NCBI GenBank assembly: GCA_016208975.1
Contig: JACQXA010000004.1
Span: 2,077,941 to 2,141,940, forward strand
DNA: 64,000 nucleotides
Reading direction: 5' to 3'
Source: Nitrospinota bacterium
Lineage (GTDB): Bacteria > Nitrospinota_A > UBA7883 > JACRLM01
In this document: positions 23,675-38,638 of the stretch, one piece after another
Layout: each line of letters begins with the position of its first letter
Numbering within the stretch: position 1 is the first letter of the stretch
The notes under the pieces: generated by a model
What the model was told of the DNA's origin: nothing
Seen by the model: the letters and a program-made list of their open reading frames with translations, nothing else
Databases searched by the model: none
Position numbers and translations under genes: made by a program

Positions 23675-23721
23675 ATGGTGCCCTCGGCGAGATTCGAACT
23701 CACGGCCTACGGATTAGGAAT
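23675..23721 (+). repeat. Attachment-site repeat (displaced tRNA-Arg 3' fragment)
   Basis: 47 bp identical to 38561-38607. It reads as the complement of the tRNA 3' half, from CCA back into the anticodon loop. It diverges at 23722 (T instead of C) where the tRNA anticodon stem would continue, so it is not a functional tRNA gene. Confidence 0.95.
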
Positions 23722-23748
23722 TCGTTTAAATGCCTTTTAGCCTGTTTT

Positions 23749-23846
23749 AAGACCTTTGCGGTCGTCACTAAGACCTTTGATATATAAGGATAATATGCTA
23801 TAAGAAGTCCGAAGGCCGCCTAGTGAGTTTTAATTCTAGTGACGAC
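23749..23846. repeat. Putative integrase arm-type binding sites, left end
   Basis: AAGACCTTTG occurs at 23749-23758 and 23770-23779, 21 bp apart (two helical turns). GTCGTCACTA at 23761-23770 is the exact reverse complement of TAGTGACGAC at 23837-23846. The related TGACGACCA occurs twice at the other island end. Such clustered direct and inverted sites beside int are expected for integrase or excisionase binding and for autoregulation of int. Confidence 0.5.
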
Positions 23847-23877
23847 CCGGCGACTACCACGGAGGCTAAGGCATAGC

Positions 23878-25119
23878 ATGAAAACCAAACTCACCAAGTC
23901 CGTAATTGACAAAATTCCATTCTCGAACGATGGCCGTTTGATGCTCATTGATACCGAGCTCAAAGGTTTCGGTTGTCGTGTGGGGAAATCGTCGAAGGTC
24001 TATTTCGCTGAAAAGCGGGTCAATGGTAAACCTGTTCGTGTCACCATCGGCAAGCATGGCCAAATCACTCCTGAACAGGCCAGAGAGGAAGCCAAAGCGA
24101 TTTTAGGGCAAATGTCTGGCCGAACCGCTTCTAATCCCAATGAGGAGAAGAAACAGGAACGTATCAAGGGGATAACGCTTGCCGAAGCCTTGGAGGAATT
24201 CAAGCGGGCCAGAAGTTATCTGAAAGCCAGAACCATCAAGGATTACGAATACGCGCTTCAAAAATACTTTTCCGATTGGCGGGGGAAGCCATTAACCGCA
24301 ATTACGCGGGAAATGGTTGATAGCCGTCATAAGCTTATTGGTAATGGAAATGGTGGCGCGGCTCAGGCGAATCAGGCTATGCGCTTTCTGCGGTCGCTTT
24401 ATAACTACGCCATTGGGAAATACGGGCGGGAAGTCGTTTCAGTCAATCCAGTGGAAGGATTAACTCTGACCCGCTCCTGGTTCAAGGTAAAGAGAAAGCA
24501 ATCCATAATTCGGCCCCACGAGTTGCCAGCGTTGTTTGAGGCGTTGGAAAAGCTGGTTGCTGAAAGCCCTTATGAAAGCACGCGGACGTTTCGGGATTAC
24601 ATTCTTCTTTTACTGTTTACCGGCTTGAGGCGAAACGAGGCTTTAAAGCTGACCTGGGATATGGTGGATTTCGAGGGGAAGACCTTCAAAATCGCCGACA
24701 CAAAGAACAACGAGCCTTTGATTCTGCCCTTGTCCAGTTACCTTTTCGATTTGCTGAACGAGAGAAGCAAAAACAGGAATGGCAGTGATTACGTTTTCCC
24801 CGGAAGGAATCCAGAGTTGCCATACGCCGATCCCACGCGGCAACTGGACAACCTGAAAAAACTCTCCGGCCTTGAATTTGCCCTTCATGATTTCCGGCGG
24901 ACGTTCATCACGATTGCCGAAAGTATAGATTTGCCTTATTATGCGCTTAAACGGCTGGTGAATCACAAGATGGGAAACGATGTGACTGCGGGATATATCG
25001 TTCACGACGTGGAGCGGTTGCGAAGACCGATGCAACAGATCACGGACAAGATACTGTTCGAGGCAAAGCAAATTGGAATCGGCAACGTCATCGAATTCAA
25101 GAAGGGAACTAGAAAATAG
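23878..25119 (+). CDS. Tyrosine recombinase/integrase of the island
   Basis: 413 aa from ATG 23878. The N-terminal arm-binding domain has GFGCRVGKSSKVYFAEKRV and ITPEQAREEAKAILGQ. A core-binding domain follows (FKRARSYLKARTIKDYEYAL). The catalytic domain shows the Arg near residue 250 (GLRRNEALKLTW), HDFRRTF near 336, HKM near 363 and the nucleophile Tyr near 372 (TAGYIVHDVERLR). It would integrate and excise the island at tRNA-Arg. It lies at the end next to the displaced tRNA fragment, and the catalytic set looks intact. Confidence 0.96.
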   Translation: MKTKLTKSVIDKIPFSNDGRLMLIDTELKGFGCRVGKSSKVYFAEKRVNGKPVRVTIGKHGQITPEQAREEAKAILGQMSGRTASNPNEEKKQERIKGITLAEALEEFKRARSYLKARTIKDYEYALQKYFSDWRGKPLTAITREMVDSRHKLIGNGNGGAAQANQAMRFLRSLYNYAIGKYGREVVSVNPVEGLTLTRSWFKVKRKQSIIRPHELPALFEALEKLVAESPYESTRTFRDYILLLLFTGLRRNEALKLTWDMVDFEGKTFKIADTKNNEPLILPLSSYLFDLLNERSKNRNGSDYVFPGRNPELPYADPTRQLDNLKKLSGLEFALHDFRRTFITIAESIDLPYYALKRLVNHKMGNDVTAGYIVHDVERLRRPMQQITDKILFEAKQIGIGNVIEFKKGTRK

Positions 25120-25122
25120 CGT

Positions 25123-25713
25123 ATGAAAAAACACAAATTGGAAAAAACACCAATAGTTGATTATGCATATTGTGATTATACTAATGCTTTTATATTTGAA
25201 GAAATACCTTGGTATTGGGCGGGTTATATACCTCCACATGAAAGTATAGAATACGATCCATTAGTGATCCCGCCAGAAATTCGGATGAATGAAAGTTTAA
25301 TTGAAAGAGGGATTAGGATGGGTTTTCTTCAGTGGTATACTGAATCTGTAGAAAAAATTGATGATGAAGGCGGGCGCTCAAAATTGGAATACATGTATAT
25401 TCCTAAATATGATCTCATTGCGCTGGCTGAAAAAATTAATGTTAAACCTGCTTTTCTATTTCCTGAAGTAAGAGGAATTTCTTCTTTATCGGATAAGCCA
25501 CTTCGGAATAACCAACGACACCGCGAGCGTTCCAGGGCAATTGCACAGTTGCTCTGGAAGCAAAATCTAAAAATAAAAATTGAAGACATGATTCATAGTG
25601 ACGAGATTAACGGCATTGCTTGCGAAGGCAAAATATATGGCCCCAAAACTCTTCGAAACTGGGTAAACGATCTTTGTCCAAACCGGAATCCTGGTCGAAG
25701 ACCTAAGGAATAA
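25123..25713 (+). CDS. Island protein of unknown function, possible DNA-binding C-terminus
   Basis: 196 aa starting 3 nt after int, so co-transcribed. Strongly A+T-rich codon use at the 5' end. No domain is firmly recognised. The C-terminal 75 residues (RHRERSRAIAQLLW, then GPKTLRNWVNDLCPNRNPGRRP) resemble a helix-turn-helix-like tail common in proteins next to integrases of proteobacterial islands. A regulatory role is plausible but inferred from position. Confidence 0.6.
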   Translation: MKKHKLEKTPIVDYAYCDYTNAFIFEEIPWYWAGYIPPHESIEYDPLVIPPEIRMNESLIERGIRMGFLQWYTESVEKIDDEGGRSKLEYMYIPKYDLIALAEKINVKPAFLFPEVRGISSLSDKPLRNNQRHRERSRAIAQLLWKQNLKIKIEDMIHSDEINGIACEGKIYGPKTLRNWVNDLCPNRNPGRRPKE

Positions 25714-25817
25714 ACTCCCGTTTTCGCTGGAAAACCGTTTTTTACGCAGTATAGGAATTTTCTTGCTCGACTAATTCTTTCAAAATCCCTCTGAAAGTAT
25801 CCAACTTAGGAGGGTTT

Positions 25818-26006
25818 ATGAAAAGTCTTCTTACTACCCAGGAAGCCGCCGATTTTATCGGCATGTCACGCCAGTTCTTGGAACGGGATCGTTGGAAAGG
25901 GGCGACTATCCCGTTTATCAGGGTAGGGGAGCGGGCGGTTCGATATCGCCTTGATGATTTGGAGGCGTACCTGGCCTCCAGAATTACCAAAGCCGTAACC
26001 ATTTAG
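25818..26006 (+). CDS. AlpA/Xis-like helix-turn-helix protein
   Basis: 62 aa: LLTTQEAADFIGMSRQFLER, then FIRVGERAVRYRLDDLEAYL. This is the MerR-like winged helix of the excisionase/AlpA (HTH_17) family, which bends att DNA to steer the integrase toward excision or activates int. A GGAGGG lies 6 nt upstream of the ATG at 25818. It sits directly before the replication gene. Confidence 0.85.
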   Translation: MKSLLTTQEAADFIGMSRQFLERDRWKGATIPFIRVGERAVRYRLDDLEAYLASRITKAVTI

Positions 26007-26019
26007 CCAGAGCCAACCC

Positions 26020-27177
26020 ATGATTGATTGGGTGACGGCGGTGGTTCCATGTTTCAGCGCTGACCCGGATAAGCTGAACGATGGCTTGATATGCCGCATC
26101 CGGCCTGATGGTGAATATGAATGGGCCAAGCACGTTCCCATATCCGTTGTCGGCTCCCATGACGCCAACATGCGCGTTAGTTACCATCCCATAAGCAAAG
26201 GTTCCGGTTATATAGGCCCCGCGCTTCGTATTGATGGCAATCCCGCGAAATGGCTTCAAGGTCACAATATCTTCGGTTCAAGTGACCTAAGTGGCCTTAT
26301 TTACGCCGTACTTGAAAGGCTTGTCGCAATTCTGGAATTACAGCCAGACGAGCAAGAAACAGATTCCTGGAAAAGGGGCATGTATCATATTTATCGCGTT
26401 GATTGCACGGAAATGTGGGAATTTCCAACTCACGCCGATGTGCTGGCATGGCTGAACGCGGCTCAGTTTCAATCGAAAAGCCGCCACGGTAAGCCGATTA
26501 TGACTGGCGGAACGCTATATTTCGGCAAGAACTCACGACGCTGGTCATTAAAGTTTTACAGCAAGGGAGAAGAAGTCAACCGACGAGATAATCCCTTGCC
26601 GGCATCTCTCCCGTTCAGAAATATGTTGCTTGAATTCGCGGACAACAAACTCAGAGCCGAACTGGTTCTAAGAAGACCCCAGCTGGAAAAACTGAACATA
26701 AACATGGCGTTCATCTGGAAGCTTGAAACACCGAAACAACAACTTCTTGAGCATCTTGCGACGCTGGATATGGCGGATCAATTTCTGCTTACAACCAAGC
26801 AGATTGATGGATTATTGCCGAGGCTTCAGCTTGCCTACAAATCTTGGCAACGTGGGGAAGACTTGCGTTCTATGTTCGGCAAAAGCACTTTCTACAGATA
26901 CAGGCGTGAAATGCTAAAACATGGGATAGATATCAGCGCTTCTTGTGAAGATAGGCAAGAGAAGAAAATGGCTCTACGGGAAATTTTCAAGAATGAACCG
27001 GCGCAAATTCCAGAGTGGGCAATTAGAACGGAGATTTTGTTTCAGCCTCTATTGTCAGAAAGTTCTGTGGGAGACAGCGGCCACGACGCAATGGCGATGG
27101 GCGAGCCGCATGGCCGCCCTAGCCATGCGCCCGGCGCCGCCTCCTCCGAGTGCGGGCATAGTAATACCGCACTTTAG
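26020..27177 (+). CDS. Phage/plasmid replication protein, gene II/X type
   Basis: 385 aa. MIDWVTAVVPC at the start and blocks such as YHIYRVDCTEMWEF and YFGKNSRRWSLKFYSKGEE match the replication initiators of filamentous phages and related plasmids (phage_CRI/phage X family). These nick DNA for rolling-circle replication with a Tyr or acidic site. It suggests that the excised island can replicate, or descends from a filamentous-phage-like element. The C-terminal 35 residues (HGRPSHAPGAASSE) are G+C-rich and unlike the rest, perhaps a newer junction. Confidence 0.75.
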   Translation: MIDWVTAVVPCFSADPDKLNDGLICRIRPDGEYEWAKHVPISVVGSHDANMRVSYHPISKGSGYIGPALRIDGNPAKWLQGHNIFGSSDLSGLIYAVLERLVAILELQPDEQETDSWKRGMYHIYRVDCTEMWEFPTHADVLAWLNAAQFQSKSRHGKPIMTGGTLYFGKNSRRWSLKFYSKGEEVNRRDNPLPASLPFRNMLLEFADNKLRAELVLRRPQLEKLNINMAFIWKLETPKQQLLEHLATLDMADQFLLTTKQIDGLLPRLQLAYKSWQRGEDLRSMFGKSTFYRYRREMLKHGIDISASCEDRQEKKMALREIFKNEPAQIPEWAIRTEILFQPLLSESSVGDSGHDAMAMGEPHGRPSHAPGAASSECGHSNTAL

Positions 27178-27241
27178 TGCCAAAATGGATCCTTGATGAA
27201 AAATAAGAGCAAATAATATGAAATATCGCTATTCCAATATA

Positions 27242-27270
27242 TTGACAGACGCTATGGATGGCTATATTAT
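27242..27270 (+). promoter_or_regulatory. Strong sigma-70 promoter for the cargo operon
   Basis: TTGACA (27242-27247), 17-bp spacer, TATTAT (27265-27270): a consensus -35 and a five-of-six -10. It lies 43 nt before the 57-aa gene and would drive the defence-like block. Confidence 0.7.
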
Positions 27271-27313
27271 TGATTTATGAAGTTGGAAATAAATTATAAC
27301 AGAAGGAAGTCCG

Positions 27314-27487
27314 ATGGCAAAGAATAAGCCGTACGGTGATAACGCAAGAATTGGGGCTGTAACTGGCCGTTCGCAGGTGTTCAATCCACATAACGAAAAG
27401 TGGACGAAACGGGATACGGAAAGCGGGCGGTTCATGGATCAAAAGGCTGATGACAAGCCATTCAAAGGCGTTAGCAAGGAGAAGTAG
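27314..27487 (+). CDS. Small conserved island protein (57 aa)
   Basis: Starts ATG 27314 after an AGAAGGAAG ribosome site. The sequence opens MAKNKPYGDNARIGAV and ends DDKPFKGVSKEK. It is strongly basic with the segment SQVFNPHNEKWTKRD, and it looks like a small family often seen in mobile islands; its function is unknown to me. It is followed after 14 nt by the AlbA_2 gene, so it is the first gene of that transcript. Confidence 0.7.
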   Translation: MAKNKPYGDNARIGAVTGRSQVFNPHNEKWTKRDTESGRFMDQKADDKPFKGVSKEK

Positions 27488-27501
27488 GCTGATAGCTCTT
27501 T

Positions 27502-28782
27502 ATGATCTATTCTAAGACGATTGAGGATTTGACTTGGAATGATGTCGAATCCTTTTGTTCCCGTGGTGTCGCGGAAAACGCTTATCTTGATTACAAAGAG
27601 AGCTTTCCAAAAAATCTTGAAAAGACTATTGCCGCCATGGCGAACACCTTCGGTGGAATCATACTGGTTGGGATTGAAGAAGACAAGAATAATAAGCCGG
27701 TACAGCCAATAAAAGGCATTGAGTTAGAACGCGGGCTGGAGGAAAAAGTAATCAGTATCATCCTTTCCAACATTACTCCACCCATTATCCCTGAAATAAA
27801 GGTGTGTCCTGACGGTGAGGCTCAAAAGGCCGTGGTTGTTATTCGAATTCCACAAAGCCAGCAAACACCCCATGCCATAAATCGGAATACTAAAGTTTAC
27901 ATCCGGACTGGAAATAGAAATGAAGCGAAGGAACTTGAAGACTTGGCGACTCTGGATAGAATAGATTGGTTAAAGGAACATCGGAAGAAAAGCGAAGAAT
28001 TAAAAATATTTCTCTATCAACAGGCAGAGCGTAGGGTTGAAAAGTCATATTCTGACAAAAAAGTAGAAAATGACGAAAGCGCCAAACGTTTAAAAGCAAT
28101 GTACGGACGGTTATCCGCTCCGCTGGCGTTGTTTACGCTTTCAATGTGTCCTGTTTTTCCACAAGAGCCATTCCTTAATCCGCCTGCAATTGATAAGCTT
28201 TATTCAAAGATTCGAATCCGTGATTATTATGGAAGTAGTGATGGCGGATTTCCATTGCCTGGGCGTTCGATGGGATTAATAGTAAATGATGGAAGCATAA
28301 ACACCTTGGTATTTAAAGATAGAGACGGTTTTTGGCACACTGAACTGAATATTTTCGGATTGTATTTTTATAGGCAGTCTCTTTTGCATGGTACAAAGAG
28401 AATCGAGGGTAAGGAATATTCCGTTATTCGAACAAGCGAGGTGCTCTGCCGTCTTGATGAATATATTGACTCGGCAGCGCTCTTTTACAAGGAAATTGGA
28501 TTCCAAGGATTATTGGAATTTCGCGTAAACTTGGAAAACTTATTTGATCATGGGAGAATCGCATACCTTGGGAAATATCCGGATGATGGATGCTGGTCTT
28601 CAGGGCCTATTTCCACCTCACTGGATCAATCTGTTTATTTTTCCGATATAGTTCAGGCGGGGGTGTTACACGATATTAAAATGCCTCTTATCTATAATGC
28701 CGCCAAGAAAATTGCATGGGCGTTTGGCTGGGATTTAATAGAGACTGCAATTGATAAATATTATGAAAAAGAGAAGCGTTAA
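27502..28782 (+). CDS. AlbA_2 (Schlafen-AlbA) domain protein, island cargo
   Basis: 426 aa. Residues about 10-160 match the Schlafen AlbA_2 domain: NAYLDYKESFPKNLEKTIAA, then FGGIILVGIEED, then VYIRTGNRNEAKELEDLATL. The domain is linked to nucleic-acid binding or cleavage in Schlafen proteins and is frequent in phage-defence loci. The C-terminal 260 residues were not recognised and are very A+T-rich. It ends 26 nt before mod. It could be an RNA-acting partner of the R-M-like genes; that is inference. Confidence 0.72.
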   Translation: MIYSKTIEDLTWNDVESFCSRGVAENAYLDYKESFPKNLEKTIAAMANTFGGIILVGIEEDKNNKPVQPIKGIELERGLEEKVISIILSNITPPIIPEIKVCPDGEAQKAVVVIRIPQSQQTPHAINRNTKVYIRTGNRNEAKELEDLATLDRIDWLKEHRKKSEELKIFLYQQAERRVEKSYSDKKVENDESAKRLKAMYGRLSAPLALFTLSMCPVFPQEPFLNPPAIDKLYSKIRIRDYYGSSDGGFPLPGRSMGLIVNDGSINTLVFKDRDGFWHTELNIFGLYFYRQSLLHGTKRIEGKEYSVIRTSEVLCRLDEYIDSAALFYKEIGFQGLLEFRVNLENLFDHGRIAYLGKYPDDGCWSSGPISTSLDQSVYFSDIVQAGVLHDIKMPLIYNAAKKIAWAFGWDLIETAIDKYYEKEKR

Positions 28783-28808
28783 AACGGAAAGCGTTGGGGG
28801 ATTTGGGA

Positions 28809-30773
28809 ATGACTGAACAACCGAAGTATGGGCCGGGGAATCCGCACCCGCTTTCCACAATGAAGACGGAACTTGTGTGGGAAGGGAAGTATGACGAGTA
28901 CGGAAACAAGCGGGAGGTGGATATTTCCGGCTCCGCCATGCCTATGCAGAGGATAGAGACCATTGATGAGCCCAGGAGCAGGCTGGAATCCCAAGGGGAG
29001 CTTTTCAACGCCAAGAAAGCGCATACCGATGATTTTAGAAACCGGCTTATTTGGGGTGATAACAAGCTGGTAATGGCTTCCCTCCTGAAAGAATTCAAGG
29101 GAAAGATTGACCTTATCTATATTGACCCTCCATTCGATGTTGGCGCTGATTTCACGATGGATATTCCCATCGGCGATGAAAAAGAAACCATCGAGAAAGA
29201 CCAGTCAACCCTTGAAATGGTTGCCTATCGTGATATGTGGGGGAAAGGAACGGATTCTTACCTACATATGATGTATGAGCGACTTTCTCTAATGAAGGCT
29301 CTACTAAGCGAGAAAGGCAGTATTTACATCCATATAGATTATAGAGTAGCAAGTTTTATTCGCCTCATAATGGATGAGTTGTTCACTAAGGATAATTTTC
29401 AGAACCAAATTATGTGGTGCTATAAAGAGAGAGAAAGAGTTCTGGATAAATACAATCCAAAGCATGACGTAATTCTTTTTTACTCAAGAACAGATTCTAA
29501 GCTAAGGCCATTCAATTGGAAGTTTGCAGCTGAAGAATATTCTGAGATAACTAGAAAGAAATTTAAGTATCAAGATGAAACGGGATGGTACCAAATTCGT
29601 GGTAAGAACAGAAAAGATAGTCCAGTGCAGGCCGCAGATGGACTTACACCGGAGCATGAAGCGAAATACCCAGGTTTAACCTTTAGAGATTACTTGCACG
29701 ACAGAGAAGGGGTTCCCCCACGTGATTGGTGGACGATTGGAATTATTAATAAGGCGGCTGATGAAAGATTGGGATATAGCACTCAAAAACCAGAAGAATT
29801 GATTGAGAGGATAATTCAGGTATCCTCCAACGAAGGCGATCTTGTTGCTGATTTCTTCTGTGGATCAGGGACAACTGGCGCAGTCGCAGAGAAGCTGGGG
29901 CGGCGCTGGATAATGAGCGACTTGGGGCGGTTTGCCATCCACACTTCCCGCAAGAGGATGATAGAAATACAGCGGGACGCTCATGTGAGCGATAAACCTT
30001 ATCGAGCCTTCGACGTTTACAACCTTGGACGGTACGAACGTCAATGGTGGCAAAAAGAGCGGCTCAACGGGGCGGATGAAGAGCATCGGCGGGTGGTGCT
30101 TGAATTCTTCAAAGCCGAAGTATTGACCAAGACACCATCACCTCTTATTCATGGAAAAAAGTCTGGCGATTTTTGCCACGTTGACGGGATAGACAGTATC
30201 TTTACCCGTGAAGAGGCCAAGGAAGTTGCCAAGGCCGTTCAACAGGCTGGCGGGAAAGAGTGCTATTGCCTGGCATGGGAATTTGAAATGGACTTGCGGC
30301 TTGCCACCGCCGCGCTGGAAAAGGAGTTTGGCGTAAAGCTTAAACTAATCCCCATCCCGCGCGAGATAATGGAGAAGAACCGAAAGGAGCCGCCACCATT
30401 CCTTGAAATGGCCGTGCTGGAAGCCGAACCAGTTTATAAAGGCGATGGCAAAGAAAGAACTGTGGACATCAAGATCACCAAGTTCATGCCCTCTTTGCAG
30501 GAAGTGCCCAGCAAGGAACTGGAAGCCCTGAAAGAACGGGCTATAAAAAGCGGAATAGATTTTATAGATTTCTGGGCGGTGGATTTTGCATGGGAGCCGG
30601 GCAAGCCGTTCAACCACCATTGGCAGGATTACCGCACACGAAAAGACCGGAGCCTTAAGACCGTGAGCGACGCTACCCATAAATACGAAACGAAAGGCAA
30701 ATACACCGCCTGCGTGAAAGTGGTGGATACTTTTGGGTGTGACACCAGCGTTACGGTGGAAATAACTATATGA
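28809..30773 (+). CDS. Site-specific DNA methyltransferase, beta class (type III Mod-like)
   Basis: 654 aa from ATG 28809. Catalytic motif IV is DPPF at residue 106 and the AdoMet motif DFFCGSGTTGAVAEKLG lies at 348. The order IV before I is the beta class, used by type III Mod subunits. Between them lies a probable target-recognition region (about 180-300) with different, A+T-rich composition (YNPKHDVILFYSRTD). After residue 400 is a long C-terminal domain ending in a PKD-like strand set (YETKGKYTACVKVVDTFG). It would methylate adenine (or cytosine-N4) at an unknown site and protect host DNA from the Res-like protein downstream. Confidence 0.88.
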   Translation: MTEQPKYGPGNPHPLSTMKTELVWEGKYDEYGNKREVDISGSAMPMQRIETIDEPRSRLESQGELFNAKKAHTDDFRNRLIWGDNKLVMASLLKEFKGKIDLIYIDPPFDVGADFTMDIPIGDEKETIEKDQSTLEMVAYRDMWGKGTDSYLHMMYERLSLMKALLSEKGSIYIHIDYRVASFIRLIMDELFTKDNFQNQIMWCYKERERVLDKYNPKHDVILFYSRTDSKLRPFNWKFAAEEYSEITRKKFKYQDETGWYQIRGKNRKDSPVQAADGLTPEHEAKYPGLTFRDYLHDREGVPPRDWWTIGIINKAADERLGYSTQKPEELIERIIQVSSNEGDLVADFFCGSGTTGAVAEKLGRRWIMSDLGRFAIHTSRKRMIEIQRDAHVSDKPYRAFDVYNLGRYERQWWQKERLNGADEEHRRVVLEFFKAEVLTKTPSPLIHGKKSGDFCHVDGIDSIFTREEAKEVAKAVQQAGGKECYCLAWEFEMDLRLATAALEKEFGVKLKLIPIPREIMEKNRKEPPPFLEMAVLEAEPVYKGDGKERTVDIKITKFMPSLQEVPSKELEALKERAIKSGIDFIDFWAVDFAWEPGKPFNHHWQDYRTRKDRSLKTVSDATHKYETKGKYTACVKVVDTFGCDTSVTVEITI

Positions 30774-30950
30774 AAATGCAATGGTTATTGATATTATGCT
30801 AACAATTATTGAATGGGAAAGCGCATTCTCATATAATAAACGCAGGGAAGAGGATCAATATCCCATAAAAAGCGCAATTGCTCCCCGTTCGACTTGTTTG
30901 AAGGCTGAAAGGCTGGATAACCTCGGACGGGGTTATTTTTTGGGGCCCCT

Positions 30951-31529
30951 ATGGTAACTGAACCTACAGTTAAACGGGCAATCGTATTCTTCGATGGGCA
31001 AAACCTTTATCACTCCGCCAGAGAAGCATTCAACCGTTCTTATCCAGACTTCGATCCTTTGAAGCTCGCAAAGAAGATTTGCGAGATGAAAGGATGGCAA
31101 CTGCATCAGGTTCGTTTCTATACAGGCATTCCCGATGAACAGGATAATGCCCATTGGCATCATTTCTGGATGGCAAAACTTGCCAGCATGGGCAAGCGAA
31201 GGATTTTTACTTTTTCAAGGCCGATCAGGAACGGCAAGGAAAAAGGAATTGATATACGGATCGCCCTTGATATGGTGCGGCTTGCCAGGCATGGCAATTA
31301 TGACGTGGGAGTTGTATTCAGCCAGGATCAGGATTTGACGGAAGCCGTTCAGGAAATAAAAGAACAGGCGTTCATTTCCGACAAGTGGATAAAAATCGCT
31401 TCCGCGTTTCCAGATAGTTCTGTTTCCAAAAATAAAAGAGGAATTAACGGGACAGATTGGATACGTATTGATTCCGCCCTTTATACATCGTGCCTTGATC
31501 CCAACGATTACAGAAAGCCGGGAGTATAG
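30951..31529 (+). CDS. NYN (PIN-like) nuclease lodged between mod and res
   Basis: 192 aa. Spaced acidic residues of the NYN fold are visible: VFFDGQNLYHSA (12-23), KGIDIRIALDMVRLA (about 98-112) and VVFSQDQDLTEAV (about 119-131). NYN proteins are metal-dependent RNases. The stop (TAG) abuts the ATG of res without a gap, indicating coupled translation. Finding an RNase-type gene inside a type III-like mod/res unit is the notable point. The 177 bp upstream hold no recognised gene; an internal promoter is possible. Confidence 0.82.
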   Translation: MVTEPTVKRAIVFFDGQNLYHSAREAFNRSYPDFDPLKLAKKICEMKGWQLHQVRFYTGIPDEQDNAHWHHFWMAKLASMGKRRIFTFSRPIRNGKEKGIDIRIALDMVRLARHGNYDVGVVFSQDQDLTEAVQEIKEQAFISDKWIKIASAFPDSSVSKNKRGINGTDWIRIDSALYTSCLDPNDYRKPGV

Positions 31530-34500
31530 ATGAGCGAAATAATAATCAACAAGTCGGCGCTGGCTCCGCTTTATAAATCATGGGAAGAGCCGAATGCTCA
31601 TAGGGTGCGGTCTAAAGATAAGGACGCCCCGGCGGAAATAGCCAAAGGACGGAGGCCATCATCCATTGTTATCGCTCATAACCTTAGAGCGATGATCAAG
31701 GAGTGGCGGGAAAATGGATATTTTGGCGCAAGCGATACCACCCGGCATCTTTTGAACCACTGGTTTGGCAGAAGCCATATCCGCTCCACTCCCGCTGGGG
31801 AGGAATTTGAGTTTCGTTATTACTTCTGTCAGCGTGAGGCGATTGAAACGCTGATCTATCTCAAGGAAGTCAGGAAACTTGAATATCTTTCCCAGCTTTA
31901 TGACGAATTTGGCGGCGAGAACAGGGAAATTGCCGCATTAGGTATTACCGAAGAAGAAGACGCATGGAGCCGATATGCCTTCAAACTAGCCACAGGTTCG
32001 GGCAAAACGAAAGTAATGAGCCTTGCTATCGTATGGAGTTATTTTCATGCCTTGCGTGAATCTGATTCACCAATGGCGAAGCATTTTGTTGTGATAGCCC
32101 CGAACATCACTGTTTTTGAGCGGCTGAAGGAAGACTTTGGCAACGGGAAAATATTTGATGAAGATCCACTTATCCCTGTCGAATGGAAGGGAGACTGGAA
32201 CCTTTCAACCGTTTTACAGGATGAGGCGGGGCAATCCGTAACAGGAGGGACGCTTTATCTCACCAATATTCACCGCCTTTACGACTTGGAAAAGCGAAAG
32301 AAAAAGCAGGAAGATGAAATGTATTCATGGGCCGGACCTCACGTCTCGAAGGCAAAGGCGCTGGATACCGGAGCCTTGTTGCGTGACAGGATAACCAGCC
32401 ATCGTAATGTGATGGTGCTAAATGACGAAGCTCACCATGTATGGGATCCAGATTCGGCTTGGAATGAAGCAATTAAATACATACATGAGACAGTTAGGAA
32501 AAAGACGGGCGGAGGAATAGTCTCCCAACTTGATTTCAGCGCAACGCCAAAAGATAACAAGGGGAATATTTTTAAGCATGTCGTTTGCGATGCGCCGCTG
32601 GGCGAAGCGGTTGACGGTGGGATTGTAAAAACCCCTGTTATCGGCAGAGGAGGAGAATTAAAAGAAGTCGCCAATGACAGCGCGGCTTATAAATTCGAGC
32701 ATCATTTGCGAATTGGTTATGAACGGTGGCTTAAAAGCTGTGAGGAGTGGCAACCTAGTGGCAAGAAACCACTGATGTTCGTGATGTGTGATGATACGAA
32801 AGCCGCTGATGAAATCGCCCAACGCTTGAACAGTGATGTTATTTTCAAAGATTTGAACGGTCTCGCAATAAACCTGCATACCAATCTCAAAGGAAAGATC
32901 AAGAACGTTGGCAAGGGGGCCACAAAGCATCAAGTGTTTGAGGAGAGTGAAAAGGAAATCAGCGATGAGGATTTGAAAGAACTCCGCAAATTGAGCCGGG
33001 AGCTGGATTCAAATACCAGCCCTTATAAGTGCATTGTTTCAGTCCTTATGCTTCGAGAAGGTTGGGACGTGAGAAACGTAACAACAATAATTCCATTGCG
33101 CCCTTATAGTTCAAAGGCAAATATTTTGCCAGAACAAACGCTTGGGCGCGGTTTGCGGCGAATGACCCCACCAGGGCAGGCAGAAGAACTTGTGACGATT
33201 GTGGAACATCCCGCCTTCGCTAGCCTGTATCAGCAGGAATTGGCTCAAGAAGGTGTTTTGGTGGATGTAGTGGATGTTGATGACGTGCCGCAAACTACAA
33301 TTTCCATTTTCCCGGACGCGGGCAATAAAGATTTAAAAGCGTTGGACATCAAGATTCCAGTTCTTGCCGCCGCCCATAGACCCGTTCCCAAGATTGAGAA
33401 TCTTTCTATCGAAGACATTAAAAAGAAGTTTGCGGGATTATCCAAACTTCCATTGGGGCGCAAGGGTAAGACCGAGATTGAGTATGAGGGCAGGGCGCTT
33501 TTCACTAATGAAGTTGTGGAAAGAATGAAAGTGAATATTCAGCTTTTGGAAAGCGGCCCCGGCGCAATATCCTATTATGTCCATATGCTGGAGCATATTT
33601 GCCGGTTACGAGGAACACATTCCACTCTAGCCCCGTTAGTACAAACATTCTTTGAAGAAATCCTCTTTGAAGTTAAGGCAACCATTTTTGACCAAAATCT
33701 GGTACATCGCCTTGGGGACTCGGATGTTCAGGAACATTTAAGGGCCGTATTCATTCCCCTTATACGGGAAAGGATTATTAAGACAGAAGCTAGAGATAAA
33801 AAGTCGGAATATTATTCATTGGCGGATTGGAAGCCTTATCAAGTAACGCATAGTGAGAGACGGCCAGCAGTAAAAGCAACGGGAACGCTGTTTAACCTTG
33901 TTCCGTGCAATCGGGAACTGGAAGTTGCAATGGCCCAGTTTATTGATAGGGCGCATATCGGAGGGGATGTAGCCGCATTTGCGAAAAATGCCGGGCCGCA
34001 ATGTTTGAGGATAGATTATCTTTCGGATGGTTTCCGGCTAGCCTTCTATACTCCAGATTTCTTTGTTAGAGCGAAGGATGGTAATTACTATCTCATCGAA
34101 ACAAAAGGCCGGGAAGATAGAGATGTTCCACTTAAAGCAAGGGCGGCTGTTGAATGGTGTAAATCTGCCTCATCAAAGGACGCAAAGTGGGAATATGTTT
34201 ATGTCCCACAAGGCGTTTTTAGTGGCGCTTCTTGTAAGACGGTCAGTGAGCTGGCAAGAACCTGTGCGCCTTCGCTAAAAGAGCTTTTAGACGAAAAGGT
34301 TGTTCCCCAACTGCCTTTATTTGAGAATAAGCCAGAAGAGCAAATTCCAACCACAAATGGCATCGTTGATATCTCTATAATTGAAAATATGCCGTCCAGA
34401 TATAAGAAGGCGGCCAGCGAGGCTCTAGAACTATTTGCCTTCCTCAAGAACAAGGAAGGTGTGAATCTTTCTCCCGTATTTCAACCATTGCTGGGTTCAA

Positions 34501-34967
34501 TAGATGACGCGGCGAGGGGCGTAATAATCAAGATGCTGGAGTCTGAAATGCCAACCAGTGGCCCTAAGCAGGCTGATTGGTTCGATCCCTTCTATGGCGA
34601 TATGGGTAGAGCAGACGAGAACAACTTTAAGAACATTGCAAGGAACTTAAAAAAGACGCTTATTTATCGAAATGGGCTGTCTCCCATTGGCCTGCTGAAC
34701 AATTGCATGGAATATGCTCTTAACGATAGCCGTAAGATCGGCGGTGCTTTTGAATCCATAAAGAAGAAATTCAAGGTCAGTGGCAGTCGTGAAGTTTTGG
34801 ATGCTGTCAAAGCTGTAAATGATTTTCGAAACACCTATGTTGCCCATTCTGAGAAGGAATTGCTGGATAGCAAATTAGCCGGAAAGGAACTTAAAACGTG
34901 GATTGAAGGATTGGCTTTGATATCGGGATTTGCCTCATCCGGGCGCATCGTGGAAGAAAAAGGGTAA
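31530..34967 (+). CDS. Res-like SF2 helicase-nuclease with C-terminal HEPN-like region
   Basis: 1145 aa. Helicase motifs are Walker A TGSGKT (155-160), DEAH (299-302), FSATPK (about 336) and motif VI TLGRGLRRM (about 535). The nuclease motif follows: TPDFF with Asp843, then IETKGR with Glu857 and Lys859, a D-x13-ExK site. This is the type III Res order. Beyond the normal Res end, residues about 960-1145 form a helical extension with DFRNTYVAHSEKE; Arg1100 and His1106 make an Rx5H motif like that of HEPN RNases. It should cut or unwind DNA with the Mod partner; the HEPN reading is inference. Its last codons lie in a 45-bp repeat shared with fic. Confidence 0.88.
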   Translation: MSEIIINKSALAPLYKSWEEPNAHRVRSKDKDAPAEIAKGRRPSSIVIAHNLRAMIKEWRENGYFGASDTTRHLLNHWFGRSHIRSTPAGEEFEFRYYFCQREAIETLIYLKEVRKLEYLSQLYDEFGGENREIAALGITEEEDAWSRYAFKLATGSGKTKVMSLAIVWSYFHALRESDSPMAKHFVVIAPNITVFERLKEDFGNGKIFDEDPLIPVEWKGDWNLSTVLQDEAGQSVTGGTLYLTNIHRLYDLEKRKKKQEDEMYSWAGPHVSKAKALDTGALLRDRITSHRNVMVLNDEAHHVWDPDSAWNEAIKYIHETVRKKTGGGIVSQLDFSATPKDNKGNIFKHVVCDAPLGEAVDGGIVKTPVIGRGGELKEVANDSAAYKFEHHLRIGYERWLKSCEEWQPSGKKPLMFVMCDDTKAADEIAQRLNSDVIFKDLNGLAINLHTNLKGKIKNVGKGATKHQVFEESEKEISDEDLKELRKLSRELDSNTSPYKCIVSVLMLREGWDVRNVTTIIPLRPYSSKANILPEQTLGRGLRRMTPPGQAEELVTIVEHPAFASLYQQELAQEGVLVDVVDVDDVPQTTISIFPDAGNKDLKALDIKIPVLAAAHRPVPKIENLSIEDIKKKFAGLSKLPLGRKGKTEIEYEGRALFTNEVVERMKVNIQLLESGPGAISYYVHMLEHICRLRGTHSTLAPLVQTFFEEILFEVKATIFDQNLVHRLGDSDVQEHLRAVFIPLIRERIIKTEARDKKSEYYSLADWKPYQVTHSERRPAVKATGTLFNLVPCNRELEVAMAQFIDRAHIGGDVAAFAKNAGPQCLRIDYLSDGFRLAFYTPDFFVRAKDGNYYLIETKGREDRDVPLKARAAVEWCKSASSKDAKWEYVYVPQGVFSGASCKTVSELARTCAPSLKELLDEKVVPQLPLFENKPEEQIPTTNGIVDISIIENMPSRYKKAASEALELFAFLKNKEGVNLSPVFQPLLGSIDDAARGVIIKMLESEMPTSGPKQADWFDPFYGDMGRADENNFKNIARNLKKTLIYRNGLSPIGLLNNCMEYALNDSRKIGGAFESIKKKFKVSGSREVLDAVKAVNDFRNTYVAHSEKELLDSKLAGKELKTWIEGLALISGFASSGRIVEEKG

Positions 34968-34989
34968 TACCCCTAAAAGGGGGTAATAA
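34945..34989 (+). repeat. 45-bp direct repeat, copy at the 3' end of res
   Basis: Identical to 38326-38370. It covers the last codons and stop of res. In the frame used by fic it reads the fic tail ASWKKKGNTPKRG, so this copy looks like a fic 3' remnant. Weaker similarity continues for about 20 bp. Confidence 0.9.
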
Positions 34990-35084
34990 AGAGGGTAATA
35001 GACTGGCCATATAAGCGATACGGACAAAATCTTAGCAGGGCTATTGGGTTATAATTACAACATCAACTCAACGGGGTTTAAATC

Positions 35085-35318
35085 ATGTTGCAGGCGATAA
35101 GGGGACATTACAGGGATGGCAAAATTGAGCTTTATGAGGAGCCGAAATTGAAGGAAGGCGAAATAATTGTGACTTTCCTGAATTCGGGTGAATCTGTATC
35201 GGTTGATTTGCAGGCTCGAGGAATATCAATAACCGAGGCGGCTGATTTAAAATACAGGCTTAAAACGTTTGAAGCCGACTGGAACGCCGAGGGGATGGAT
35301 ATTTATGACAAAGTATAA
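35085..35318 (+). CDS. Antitoxin of a MazF/PemK-type module
   Basis: 77 aa: MLQAIRGHYRDGKIELYEEP, then EGEIIVTFLNSG, resembling short antitoxins with an N-terminal beta DNA-binding part and an acidic tail (TFEADWNAEGMDIYDKV). It overlaps the toxin gene by 14 nt. A TATAAT box at 35050-35055 lies 29 nt upstream. Such antitoxins bind the toxin and repress the shared promoter. Family placement rests mainly on the partner. Confidence 0.75.
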   Translation: MLQAIRGHYRDGKIELYEEPKLKEGEIIVTFLNSGESVSVDLQARGISITEAADLKYRLKTFEADWNAEGMDIYDKV

Positions 35319-35655
35319 AAAGGGAACGGTTGTATTAGCCCTTTTTCCCAAATCCGACCTTGTAACCGCAAAGCGTCGTCCTGCCTTGGTGGTTCAAGCC
35401 GATACGCCAAATACAGGGCTGGATCAAGTCATTATAGCCATGATAACAAGTAACCTTGCCCGCGAAGGCCATCCCTCCCGTGTGAGGATCAACAAGGATT
35501 CCGATTCAGGAAAACAGGCGGGATTGCTCACCGATTCCGTGATCATGACGGACAATGTGGCCACTGTCAGGCTGGTTGAGATAGACAAGGCGCTTGGCGC
35601 ATTGCCGGATACGAGCTCGGTGGACAAAGCATTGAAGATAACTTTCGGTTTGTAA
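35305..35655 (+). CDS. MazF/PemK-family mRNA interferase toxin
   Basis: 116 aa from ATG 35305. The family start KKGTVVLALFPKSDLVTAKRRPALVVQ-like block, then VIIAMITSN, GLLTDSVIMTDNVATVR and ALGALPD, are typical of PemK/MazF ribonucleases that cut mRNA at short sites. The overlap with the antitoxin gene gives coupled expression. In the island it may stabilise the element or act as an abortive-infection arm. Confidence 0.88.
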   Translation: MTKYKKGTVVLALFPKSDLVTAKRRPALVVQADTPNTGLDQVIIAMITSNLAREGHPSRVRINKDSDSGKQAGLLTDSVIMTDNVATVRLVEIDKALGALPDTSSVDKALKITFGL

Positions 35656-35656
35656 A

Positions 35657-35803
35657 ATGGCTGGATTCGCGGCTAATCGTAAATCCGTCCTAAAACGCCT
35701 CGACGCCAAAGGCGAAAACTGCGAAGCATGGGAACGGGAGATAGGCGGAATTGTGGCGAAGCTGTATGGACTGCCTTCAAGCATGAATCTGTTGTTGTGT
35801 TGA
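35657..35803 (+). pseudogene. Short relic resembling the C-terminus of a type II/IIG methyltransferase-nuclease
   Basis: 48-codon frame from ATG 35657. The stretch CEAWEREIGGIVAKLYGL resembles the conserved end of Eco57I-like enzymes (EIDRLVYELYGL). What follows is short and unlike it. It begins 1 nt after the toxin stop and probably is debris of another R-M gene. The match is short, so confidence is low. Confidence 0.35.
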
Positions 35804-35830
35804 CAAAAAGATAGAGAAATATGTGAGATC

Positions 35831-37288
35831 ATGAAGATACATTTTTCAGATTTTTTTGAAATTGATCCTGAGGATATCGAGAAGTATGGAGCGTTTAATA
35901 TTTCCTTAATTAATGACCTGCCTCTCTTTATTGATCCTTTCCTACTTTTCAATAGTACTAAAGAAGAATATAAGCTTCTTCATTCCGAGATAATACACTA
36001 CATTGCCTTTTTAAGGGATCAAGCTACTTCTGGAAGAATAGATAATGGCCTTCTCAGGAGTTGGTATGAATTCCCTGAGGTCAAACAAAATTGGTTGGGA
36101 TTCAGCCGGGTGGGGAATAGTGGCGCAGGACTTGGCTCCGATTTTGCCAACGCGCTATTTAATAACTTGCATGAGTTGTTCAAAGATTTTGGTGGAGAAA
36201 GAATCACAAGAGGAAGCCACCTTGAAAAGCTATGCCTGATAAAAGAGGGAGTGGGGAAGGACAAAATCAGTGACTTTACAGCAAATCTCATTAAGCAATA
36301 TCTACTTCAATATACACAGGAATTTGGTAAAAGGTATTTAAAGAGCAATCAAAGAAAAGTTGTCGCTGTCAGCAAGGTAAGGTTTAACTATCAGACAAGA
36401 TCATGGGAGAGCGGGCATTTTGAGCTACCTTATCAAGAGGGTGATTACATCATTCTGACTCCAAAGGATATTTTGACAAAAGAAGATACATGGATAAATA
36501 AAGCAGATTTAATACATGATTTCGACGATATCGTTCAGGCCATTCCAAATGATCAACTAAGAGCACAGCTAAGTCATTATCTTCATAGCGTTCTTCCAGA
36601 AAAACCCAAGGAAGCGGATATTCGTGAAGCACGTAGCAAGGTTGTAGCCAAGTATCCTCAGATTGTTGATTACTTCATACGCTACAAAGAGGAAAACGGT
36701 GGGCAAGCGATATCATTAAGTGAGCAAAGGGTAAAGGAAATAGAAAACGTATTTTTCAAGCAACTTCGCGAATTTGTTTCTACCCTCGAAAATTCAAATC
36801 AGTTTTATCCAATTGGGGAAAATACATATGAAGAAGCGAAAAGGAGAGTTCTTTTTCTTAAGGATATAATTGAAAATAAAGGAGGGCACAAATTATTCTT
36901 TGTCAACGGTGAACCAATCCGGCGTGAAAGCGATCTGCAAATATTATTTCGTCTTACATGGTATGCAACACCGTCGGATATCAGCAGAGAGGTAAACGAT
37001 GGGCGAGGGCCTGTTGATTTCAAAGTGTCTAGAGGCAGTAAGGATAAGTCTTTAGTTGAATTTAAATTGGCGAAAAATACACACCTAAAACGCAACTTGG
37101 AAAAGCAATTAGCTATATATGAAAGGGCAAGCGATGCAAAACACTCATTGAGCGTGATTCTATTTTTCTCGGAAGAGGAACTGATTAAGGTCAATGGAAT
37201 ATTGAAAGAACTCGGATTGCAGAAATCCTCAGATATTATTTTGATAGACGCCTCTTCAACAAATAAACCATCAGGTTCAAAAGCGTAA
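35831..37288 (+). CDS. Unrecognised cargo protein with C-terminal PD-(D/E)XK-like nuclease motif
   Basis: 485 aa with the strongest A+T bias of the island. The N-terminal 300 residues match no family I know (start MKIHFSDFFEIDPEDIEKYG; a second block FIDPFLLFNSTKEEYKLLH). Near the end, RRESDLQILFRLTWY leads to GRGPVDFKVSRGSKDKSLVEFKLAK: Asp396, Glu410 and Lys412 fit the D...ExK pattern of restriction-like nucleases. It lies between the toxin module and fic. Could be a stand-alone defence nuclease; function is not shown. Confidence 0.65.
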   Translation: MKIHFSDFFEIDPEDIEKYGAFNISLINDLPLFIDPFLLFNSTKEEYKLLHSEIIHYIAFLRDQATSGRIDNGLLRSWYEFPEVKQNWLGFSRVGNSGAGLGSDFANALFNNLHELFKDFGGERITRGSHLEKLCLIKEGVGKDKISDFTANLIKQYLLQYTQEFGKRYLKSNQRKVVAVSKVRFNYQTRSWESGHFELPYQEGDYIILTPKDILTKEDTWINKADLIHDFDDIVQAIPNDQLRAQLSHYLHSVLPEKPKEADIREARSKVVAKYPQIVDYFIRYKEENGGQAISLSEQRVKEIENVFFKQLREFVSTLENSNQFYPIGENTYEEAKRRVLFLKDIIENKGGHKLFFVNGEPIRRESDLQILFRLTWYATPSDISREVNDGRGPVDFKVSRGSKDKSLVEFKLAKNTHLKRNLEKQLAIYERASDAKHSLSVILFFSEEELIKVNGILKELGLQKSSDIILIDASSTNKPSGSKA

Positions 37289-37305
37289 GCCAGAAAAATG
37301 ATTTT

Positions 37306-38367
37306 ATGATGACGATTAAACGTTTCGCCTCCAAGCTGGACTCCATACCAGTTGGAACCTCGTGGCTTCTGGCTGATTTGGGTGAAGCTCTGGGTAAGCA
37401 GGAGCTTTTCACAAAGCAATCACCGCAAAGGCTTAACGTTTTGCGGGAACATGCCTTGATTGAGAGCGCCGTTTCATCCAATCGAATTGAAGGGGTGACG
37501 ATGGATGACGAGCGTGTTCGCCCGGTCATTCTTGGCAAGTCTCATCTGCGAGATAGGAACGAGGAAGAAATAAGAGGCTATCGGAACGCGCTTAAGATTA
37601 TTCATGAGCAAGGCGCCAAAATGCCGGTATCGGAAGATAGCATCCTCAATCTGCACAAGCTCACGCGGGGTGAAATATGGGACGCTGGGAAATATAAAGA
37701 AAAGAATGTGGACATAATCGAGAAAATGCCCAATGGCCGGGATCGTGTCCGGTTCAAAACCGTTCCGGCGGCTAAAACCCCGGCTTATATGGCCGAATTG
37801 GTAACGCTGTGGCGGCAAAGTATGGATGAACGTTCAGCGCCACCTCTCATACTGCTGGCGGCGTTCAATCTGGACTTTTTGTGCATCCATCCTTTTCGGG
37901 ATGGGAATGGCCGCGTATCCCGATTATTGCTTCTGTTCCAGTTATACCGCCTTGGGTATGAGGCGGGGCGTTACATCAGCATTGAACGCATCATCGAGCA
38001 GAGCAAAGACCGCTACTATGAAACTCTAGAGCAAAGCTCCCAAGGCTGGCATGAGGGCAAACACGACCCGTGGCCTTATATTAATTATGTCCTTTTCACG
38101 CTCAAGACGGCATATCGAGAGTTGGAAGAGAGGGTAGGCCAGGTCAAGAGTCCTCGCGGGGCAAAGACGGAACTTATCGAATCAGCGATTAATTCCTTTA
38201 CGGGTGAATTTACGTTGTCCGATCTGGAGCGGGCCTGCCCCGGAGTAAGCCGGGATATGGTTCGACGAGTGCTTCGAGACCTCCAGAAAGCCAAGAAAGT
38301 GGAGTGCCTTGGCCGTGGGCCTGGGGCATCGTGGAAGAAAAAGGGTAATACCCCTAAAAGGGGGTAA
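37306..38367 (+). CDS. Fic-family AMP-transferase with C-terminal winged helix
   Basis: 353 aa. The Fic active-site loop HPFRDGNGRVSR is complete, near residue 195. An N-terminal SNRIEG (about 58-63) matches the inhibitory (S/T)xxxE(G/N) helix of class II Fic proteins, whose Glu blocks the ATP site. The C-terminal 75 residues (FTLSDLERACPGVSRDMVRRVLRDL) look like a winged helix. Fic proteins AMPylate or otherwise modify target hydroxyls. The end, GASWKKKGNTPKRG, lies in the 45-bp repeat also present after res. Confidence 0.93.
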   Translation: MMTIKRFASKLDSIPVGTSWLLADLGEALGKQELFTKQSPQRLNVLREHALIESAVSSNRIEGVTMDDERVRPVILGKSHLRDRNEEEIRGYRNALKIIHEQGAKMPVSEDSILNLHKLTRGEIWDAGKYKEKNVDIIEKMPNGRDRVRFKTVPAAKTPAYMAELVTLWRQSMDERSAPPLILLAAFNLDFLCIHPFRDGNGRVSRLLLLFQLYRLGYEAGRYISIERIIEQSKDRYYETLEQSSQGWHEGKHDPWPYINYVLFTLKTAYRELEERVGQVKSPRGAKTELIESAINSFTGEFTLSDLERACPGVSRDMVRRVLRDLQKAKKVECLGRGPGASWKKKGNTPKRG

Positions 38368-38370
38368 TAA
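38326..38370 (+). repeat. 45-bp direct repeat, copy at the 3' end of fic
   Basis: Perfect match to 34945-34989, 3,381 bp away. It encodes the last 14 residues and stop of Fic, so this is probably the native copy. Confidence 0.9.
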
Positions 38371-38498
38371 TAAGGATAATAGCAAGCAGGATCACCCTTC
38401 TTTCAATTCTGCCAATCTAGACAAGCAAAATACGATTTCCTTTCCGCTCAATCACCCCAGACAAAGAACCGCCCCTAAATATATTTCCCCGTTTTTGC

Positions 38499-38518
38499 TG
38501 ACGACCATATGACGACCA
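38499..38518 (+). repeat. Putative arm-type sites, right end of the island
   Basis: TGACGACCA at 38499-38507 and 38510-38518, 11 bp apart (one helical turn). The core TGACGAC is also in the inverted repeat next to int at 23839-23845. Confidence 0.5.
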
Positions 38519-38560
38519 GAGGGATTTAAAGATTTGACAGATTGTTTAACTTATTGAAAA

Positions 38561-38607
38561 ATGGTGCCCTCGGCGAGATTCGAACTCACGGCCTACGGAT
38601 TAGGAAT
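38561..38607 (+). repeat. Attachment-site repeat inside the intact tRNA-Arg
   Basis: Right boundary of the island; 47 bp identical to 23675-23721. It forms the 3' 46 nt of the reconstituted tRNA-Arg gene, so integration left the tRNA functional. Confidence 0.95.
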
Positions 38608-38638
38608 CCGGCGCTCTATCCAGCTGAGCTACGAGGGC
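38562..38638 (-). tRNA. tRNA-Arg (anticodon CCT)
   Basis: 77 nt on the minus strand with encoded CCA. The acceptor stem is GCCCTCG / CGAGGGC, the D arm has AGCTCAGCTGGATAGAGC, and the anticodon loop TTCCTAA has anticodon CCT (reads AGG). The T arm has GTTCGAAT. It is the integration target of the island. Confidence 0.97.

Follow-up and report, generated by a model that had tools for sequence, protein, structure and literature searches.

What is a gene for an NYN ribonuclease-fold protein doing between the mod and res genes of a type III-like restriction-modification (R-M) operon? The question is raised by a locus of a Nitrospinota bacterium (assembly GCA_016208975.1, contig JACQXA010000004.1), which lies in a stretch of 64,000 nucleotides analysed here as a whole and referred to as the window (positions 2,077,941 to 2,141,940 of the contig; coordinates below count from its first letter). 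A first-pass annotation had joined five genes of this locus into a single layered defence in which DNA cleavage would be backed by RNA degradation or an abortive response. Our analysis assigns the NYN gene to a different partner, a small structured RNA that is encoded directly upstream of it, is absent from Rfam, is easily taken for an ordinary terminator and is paired nearly one-to-one with this NYN family across many phyla. The features on which the argument rests are the following.

27242-27270, plus strand: promoter of the operon, TTGACA-17-TATTAT, 11/12 match to the consensus.
27314-27487, plus strand: 57-aa protein of the PDC-S38 family (PADLOC E 7e-32, match over the full length).
27502-28782, plus strand: SLFN/AlbA_2 protein (PF04326, E 1.9e-18).
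28794-30773, likely start 28809, plus strand: Mod, a beta-class adenine/cytosine methyltransferase with a PKD-like C-terminus (PF01555, E 1.8e-42; PADLOC MTase_III, E 5e-235).
30809-30837, plus strand: promoter of the RNA-NYN cassette, TTGAAT-17-TATAAT, 10/12 match; the TATAAT is also present in the two nearest relatives of the locus, L010 and L011.
30874-30944, core stem 30883-30932, plus strand: structured RNA with a terminator-like U-tail (45.4 bits, E 1.7e-8 with R1, our covariance model of this RNA).
30951-31529, plus strand: NYN ribonuclease-fold protein, putative toxin (PF01936, E 2.4e-14).
31530-34967, plus strand: Res, a superfamily 2 (SF2) helicase-nuclease with a 235-aa C-terminal extension (PF04851, E 3e-14; BPTD_3080-like; PD-ExK motif).
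34827-34847, plus strand: HEPN-like motif RNTYVAH in Res, with R, N, T, A and H invariant in four homologues.

Much of the first description holds: all five open reading frames (ORFs) are intact and co-directional, with whole motifs and no frameshift, a near-consensus promoter stands ahead of them, and the NYN stop abuts the start of res. Mod and Res do form a type III-like pair, and the extra nuclease-fold genes are present. The start of Mod has to be corrected, homology favouring the ATG at 28809 over the TTG at 28794. Nor is the series a single unbroken operon: a 177-nt gap between mod and NYN holds the second promoter and the structured RNA ending in a U-tract, neither of which the first-pass annotation mentions.

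Within this gap a 72-nt stretch is identical in L010 whereas the flanking gap sequence differs; in L011 the sequence of the RNA has changed and its pairing is equally kept. The RNA, a hairpin of about 55 nt, folds into a long GC stem with a small inner stem that is closed by a GNRA-type loop; a U-tract comes next, and in the window the RNA ends 6 nt 5' of the NYN start. Upstream sequences read by eye share the recurrent element ...CTTGCTCCCCGyyyGACACGCCGCAAGGCCTCrrrCGGGGTTATTTTTT. An ungapped alignment of 29 copies showed 98.9% paired cells and five pairs with double changes, the double-change cells amounting to 20 against 5.1 in shuffles, and this signal was destroyed when the partner columns were slid by one. 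Conservation extends to unpaired positions, among them the 5' leader and the inner stem's loop side, and goes beyond what a terminator requires. Because of this conservation, and because only matches below about 40 bits resemble ordinary GC-rich terminators, we rejected a plain terminator as the identity of the RNA. Rfam scans in five places gave no match above noise (e.g. ClpQY_promoter at 11.7 bits, against a gathering score of 42), and no description of the RNA or of an RNA-controlled NYN toxin was found in the literature searched, the coverage of which was incomplete. Across loci the RNA is preceded by a Sigma70-like signal (mean best score 8.39 versus 6.97 in shuffles, standard deviation 0.10), with the -10 box 10-15 nt 5' of the start of the model; the predicted length of the RNA is therefore about 50-60 nt. 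In the group to which the window belongs the promoter at 30809-30837 lies further upstream and leaves a leader of about 30 nt.

The association of this RNA with NYN genes extends far beyond the locus. A pattern search of the same genome retrieved one further same-sense copy, directly 5' of a second, solitary NYN gene that is 67% identical to the first and far from any Mod or Res. Across 24 genomes of the phylum, searches with the RNA pattern and with the NYN profile led to an identical set of five loci from four genomes; in one of these loci NYN is cut to its first 52 codons and the RNA is intact. Scanning 84,980 species genomes yielded 78 loci of the NYN family, in Pseudomonadota, Planctomycetota, Acidobacteriota, Verrucomicrobiota, Actinomycetota, Chloroflexota, Nitrospinota and other phyla, to which viral contigs added eight. 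R1 placed the RNA directly upstream of 70 of the 73 full-length homologues, in many phyla, and the three that lack it are the most diverged (41, 32 and 31% identity). Sampling of 385 alphaproteobacterial and 392 planctomycete genomes recovered four and five clear NYN genes (E<1e-65), respectively, every one of them with the RNA; R1 detected six of these nine RNAs, and the other three (G353, G722 and G572) were recognised by eye, variant hairpins having escaped the stricter filter that was applied to many genomes. More distant relatives (E 1e-50 to 1e-62, in G187, G291, G067, G302 and G203) had no clear RNA, and the pairing therefore belongs to one NYN subfamily. Two tandem copies of the hairpin occur in a few loci (L059, L079 and L247). 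The pairing is thus shown to be a widespread two-part unit, a promoter and a hairpin RNA with its U-tract followed by a gene of the NYN RNase fold, which recurs alone across bacteria.

The RNA also persists where an intact NYN is lacking. In at least 11 loci NYN is broken and the RNA kept, and no close NYN was found without the RNA, so that decay of the pair is one-sided. Solitary RNAs with their own promoter and no gene behind them were found as an array in L093 and in L160 and L161. Further copies without NYN reside in phage-like contigs: 20 nt 3' of the major head gene (phrog_9953) in L223, in the apparent structural module of L228 and L229, and, in the 80-kb viral contig L230 (173-228), in a nine-tRNA array between tRNA-Trp and tRNA-Ser. 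These copies score 47-59 bits, compared with less than 40 for ordinary terminators. A blastn search of named phage and plasmid records gave one weak partial match in phages and none in plasmids. The copies in phage-like contigs are placed as would be expected of antitoxin mimics; a phage RNA mimic of the ToxIN antitoxin, pseudo-ToxI, is cited in PMC5086642, and phage RNA mimics directed against CRISPR (Racrs) have been described (PMC10651486). As to other settings, L194 and L093 (8650-9742) contain arrays of promoter-borne RNA copies near hslV/hisB, one copy in L194 being 5' of an adenine-methyltransferase-like (NPPW) gene, and in L248 (82-140, reverse-complement coordinates) the RNA precedes an uncharacterised gene by about 40 nt, and an AlbA_2-like gene is found about 1 kb off.

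The protein partner keeps the conserved acidic catalytic residues of NYN (PIN-like) RNases: D15, D101, D107 and D128 are invariant in 66 NYN homologues, and the AlphaFold2 model predicts an NYN fold with high confidence (predicted local distance difference test, pLDDT, 94.8). The RNA-NYN unit is probably, if by no means surely, an RNA-RNase toxin-antitoxin (TA) cassette resembling type III and AbiF systems, inserted in the window between mod and res. On this reading the hairpin RNA would be made in excess, since most transcripts would stop at its own hairpin, and would bind and silence the NYN ribonuclease in the manner of the RNA antitoxins of type III TA and AbiF systems. Rare read-through transcripts would supply NYN, and takeover of the cell by a phage or loss of the RNA would free it, and RNA cleavage by NYN would then arrest the infected cell. 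As res lies behind the RNA terminator and after NYN, Res would in this operon likewise be supplied by read-through, which would place Mod first and Res later or at a lower level; such late or lower Res would be of use to an R-M system that arrives in a new host. One-sided decay, solitary RNAs and phage-like copies would all fit the antitoxin step. They are open to other readings as well, namely errors in metagenome-assembled genomes (MAGs) and the use of the hairpin as a terminator by phages, and therefore we infer this functional step.

That the cassette is separable from the R-M genes is indicated by relatives of both. Among the 78 fetched genome loci only L032 and L033, the same loci as the nearest relatives L010 and L011, have Mod and Res around NYN, the other 76 having no Mod and Res beside it, so the expected co-occurrence of NYN with Mod and Res is largely missing and their joint function, as proposed in the first-pass annotation, is not upheld. 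Elsewhere the genes directly flanking NYN vary widely and are for the most part housekeeping or phage genes; several prophage-like Sphingopyxis loci have it between the terminase and portal genes, and three loci have it within a type I R-M operon. In L034 and L159 its place there is between hsdM and hsdS, and in L044 the operon has an additional RNA-YhcG/DUF1016 unit. In L044 (6448-6502) and L165, an RNA copy is directly 5' of a YhcG/DUF1016 nuclease gene in a type I R-M operon that also has RNA-NYN. Conversely, close relatives of the Mod-Res pair lack NYN: mod and res are adjacent in L013, L208, L209 and L211, the mod stop and res start overlapping or abutting at cassette-free loci, whereas in the window they are split by the cassette. 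The most telling of these relatives is the viral contig L211, whose Res, 1138 aa long and bearing the same C-terminal extension, comes directly after Mod. R1 detected no RNA at ten Mod-Res loci without NYN. Other genes also stand at the mod-res junction of related loci, a HepT-like HEPN gene in L017 (9618-9968), an ORF6N-like gene in L016 and a DUF488-like gene plus another in L015 (those of L016 and L015 named by eye), and the junction seems to be an insertion slot.

The two R-M proteins themselves are complete, Mod with a DPPF motif and Res with GSGKT, DEAHH, QTLGRGLRR and PD..ETK. The PKD-like C-terminal domain of Mod (window 30650-30770), common to Mod relatives, matches PF18911 below the cutoff (E 2e-4). 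The 235-aa extension of Res is also present in L010, L011 and L211; its predicted fold is all-helical at low confidence (pLDDT 45), and its motif RNTxxAH accompanies a weak match to HEPN_AbiU2 (E 0.15). With a sequence motif alone, a weak profile and a poor model, we do not claim a HEPN domain here.

Several observations weigh against an antitoxin role. The RNA is a single hairpin in most loci instead of tandem repeats, its copies in phage-like contigs are few, L228 and L229 may represent one phage type, and some of the NYN disruptions could be MAG assembly errors. It also occurs 5' of the YhcG/DUF1016 gene in L044 and of the adenine-methyltransferase-like gene in L194 and is therefore not exclusive to NYN. 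Furthermore, one hairpin is both terminator and RNA, so that a cis-acting attenuator, a terminator leader that controls transcription of the downstream nuclease alone, perhaps via self-cleavage by NYN, and has no action in trans, could explain much of what we see. The distance of 6-100 nt between the U-tract and the NYN start across loci, and the presence of the RNA ahead of a few other nuclease or methylase genes, speak for such a leader. Against it stand the solitary promoter-borne copies with no gene behind, the retention of the RNA after NYN is lost, the copies in phage-like contigs, one of them within a tRNA array, and the conservation of the loop and 5' leader, and we rate it as rather improbable.

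That one structured RNA is so strictly paired with one RNase would suit a guide or activator, NYN being then an RNA-programmed or RNA-scaffolded nuclease in a ribonucleoprotein effector and not an inhibited toxin; yet the RNA, with a 5' leader that is both short and conserved, lacks a variable guide segment, and loss affects NYN genes more often than it affects the RNA, which makes this option very unlikely. The earlier model, in which Mod, NYN, Res and AlbA_2 compose one system of restriction and RNA degradation, can point to the conservation of the five-gene order in L010, a locus of another genus and with other surroundings, to Mod-NYN-Res in L011 and to the abutting NYN stop and res start. 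Nonetheless, NYN has its own RNA and promoter, is solo or elsewhere in nearly all other loci and has a solo copy in the same genome, and there are Mod-Res relatives without it; we consider that model unlikely. An RNA-degrading or abortive role for NYN is still plausible, though in an RNA-controlled module rather than as a third R-M subunit.

The upstream genes seem to be separable too. The AlbA_2 gene recurs with Mod in L010 only, and its relative there is 58% identical as against 78-93% for the other four genes; hence the pair of the 57-aa gene and AlbA_2 also looks like a separate module. No close AlbA_2 relatives were found in plasmids and viral contigs. The PDC-S38 family of the 57-aa protein, a PADLOC candidate defence family, is widespread, defence-associated and found with many unrelated genes, its plasmid relatives being beside effector-like genes. 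All five genes are carried by a 14.9-kb integrative element that sits in a tRNA-Arg gene (window 23675-38610), is low in G+C (43-47% compared with about 55%) and has the following features.

23675-23724, no strand assigned: attL-like direct repeat, a copy of the 3' part of tRNA-Arg (50 nt, 98% identity to 38561-38610).
23839-25119, plus strand: tyrosine integrase-like gene beside attL, 44% identical to an integrase-like ORF of L017, its family assigned from the sequence.
26020-27177, plus strand: filamentous-phage-type replication protein (G2P/CRI; PF05144, E 4e-54; TIGR01629).
34939-35001, plus strand: first copy of a 63-nt direct repeat, at the res 3' end, 92% identical to the copy at 38320-38382.
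38561-38610: attR, inside tRNA-Arg (38562-38638, minus strand).

The element also carries a PemK/MazF-like toxin, preceded by an ORF with a weak AF2212-like match that is a possible antitoxin, a PDC-M36A-like protein and a Fic protein. The PDC-M36A-like protein (485 aa, window 35831-37288) has no Pfam match and adjoins the Fic protein. The 63-nt repeats, at the 3' ends of res and fic, bracket this PemK-like toxin/PDC-M36A/Fic module; the repeat was ruled out as a general cassette site, no further copy being present in 24 genomes of the phylum. Taken as a whole, and with a single, modestly favourable judgement for all of its parts together, we propose that a tRNA-integrated element carries at this locus a composite defence cargo, made of the pair formed by the 57-aa and AlbA_2 genes, a type III-like Mod-Res pair and the RNA-NYN cassette placed exactly between mod and res.

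If the RNA is an antitoxin, an unrelated toxin fold and an unrelated RNA fold would be added to the RNA-protein TA systems, and the uncharacterised HEC-09-like NYN proteins would acquire a testable function, while the phage-borne copies would be direct evidence of an arms race and provide ready-made inhibitors. It is tempting to go further and to see in RNA-NYN a new class of ribonuclease toxin that is under RNA control, spans phyla and acts against phages. Phages would answer it with solitary RNA mimics, and by entering R-M operons, at the mod-res or the hsdM-hsdS junction, it would link restriction to an abortive infection driven by the RNase; taken jointly, these claims are possible but doubtful. 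The locus is also a warning that additional genes within an R-M operon can be cassettes in their own right, inserted there.

Among known proteins, NYN weakly matches HEC-09, a PADLOC candidate defence family (E 1e-13), for which we know of no RNA partner. The only convincing structural match of its model in the PDB is VPA0982 (2qip; E 1e-7), an NYN/LabA-type protein of the same fold at 16% identity, which to our knowledge has neither a known function nor an RNA partner. The R-M genes compare with type III systems in their beta-class Mod (MTase_III) followed by an SF2 helicase/PD-ExK Res (BPTD_3080-like), and differ in the RNA-NYN cassette that splits mod and res and in the Res extension with its HEPN-like motif. 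The cassette is built like AbiF/RCd22, in which a promoter, a short structured RNA with a terminator and an RNase gene read through at low level make up a phage-borne unit whose RNA is reported to neutralise the toxin directly (PMC12373285). The AbiF toxin, however, is a HEPN protein (Abi_2) and not an NYN protein, its RNA family is unrelated (no match to the abiF motif, RF03085, here), and its RNA motifs and terminator are separate elements where ours form one hairpin. The type III TA systems ToxIN, CptIN and TenpIN likewise combine an RNA gene, a Rho-independent terminator and a downstream endoribonuclease under one promoter, a layout that the sequence architecture of the cassette repeats, and phage RNA mimics are known for them (PMC5086642). 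Known members have tandem repeats folded in pseudoknots and a toxin of the ToxN/CptN/TenpN fold, instead of one hairpin and an NYN fold. As the cassette departs from type III TA in repeats and toxin fold and from AbiF in both defining sequences, we assign RNA-NYN to neither, and claim a likeness to both in build alone.

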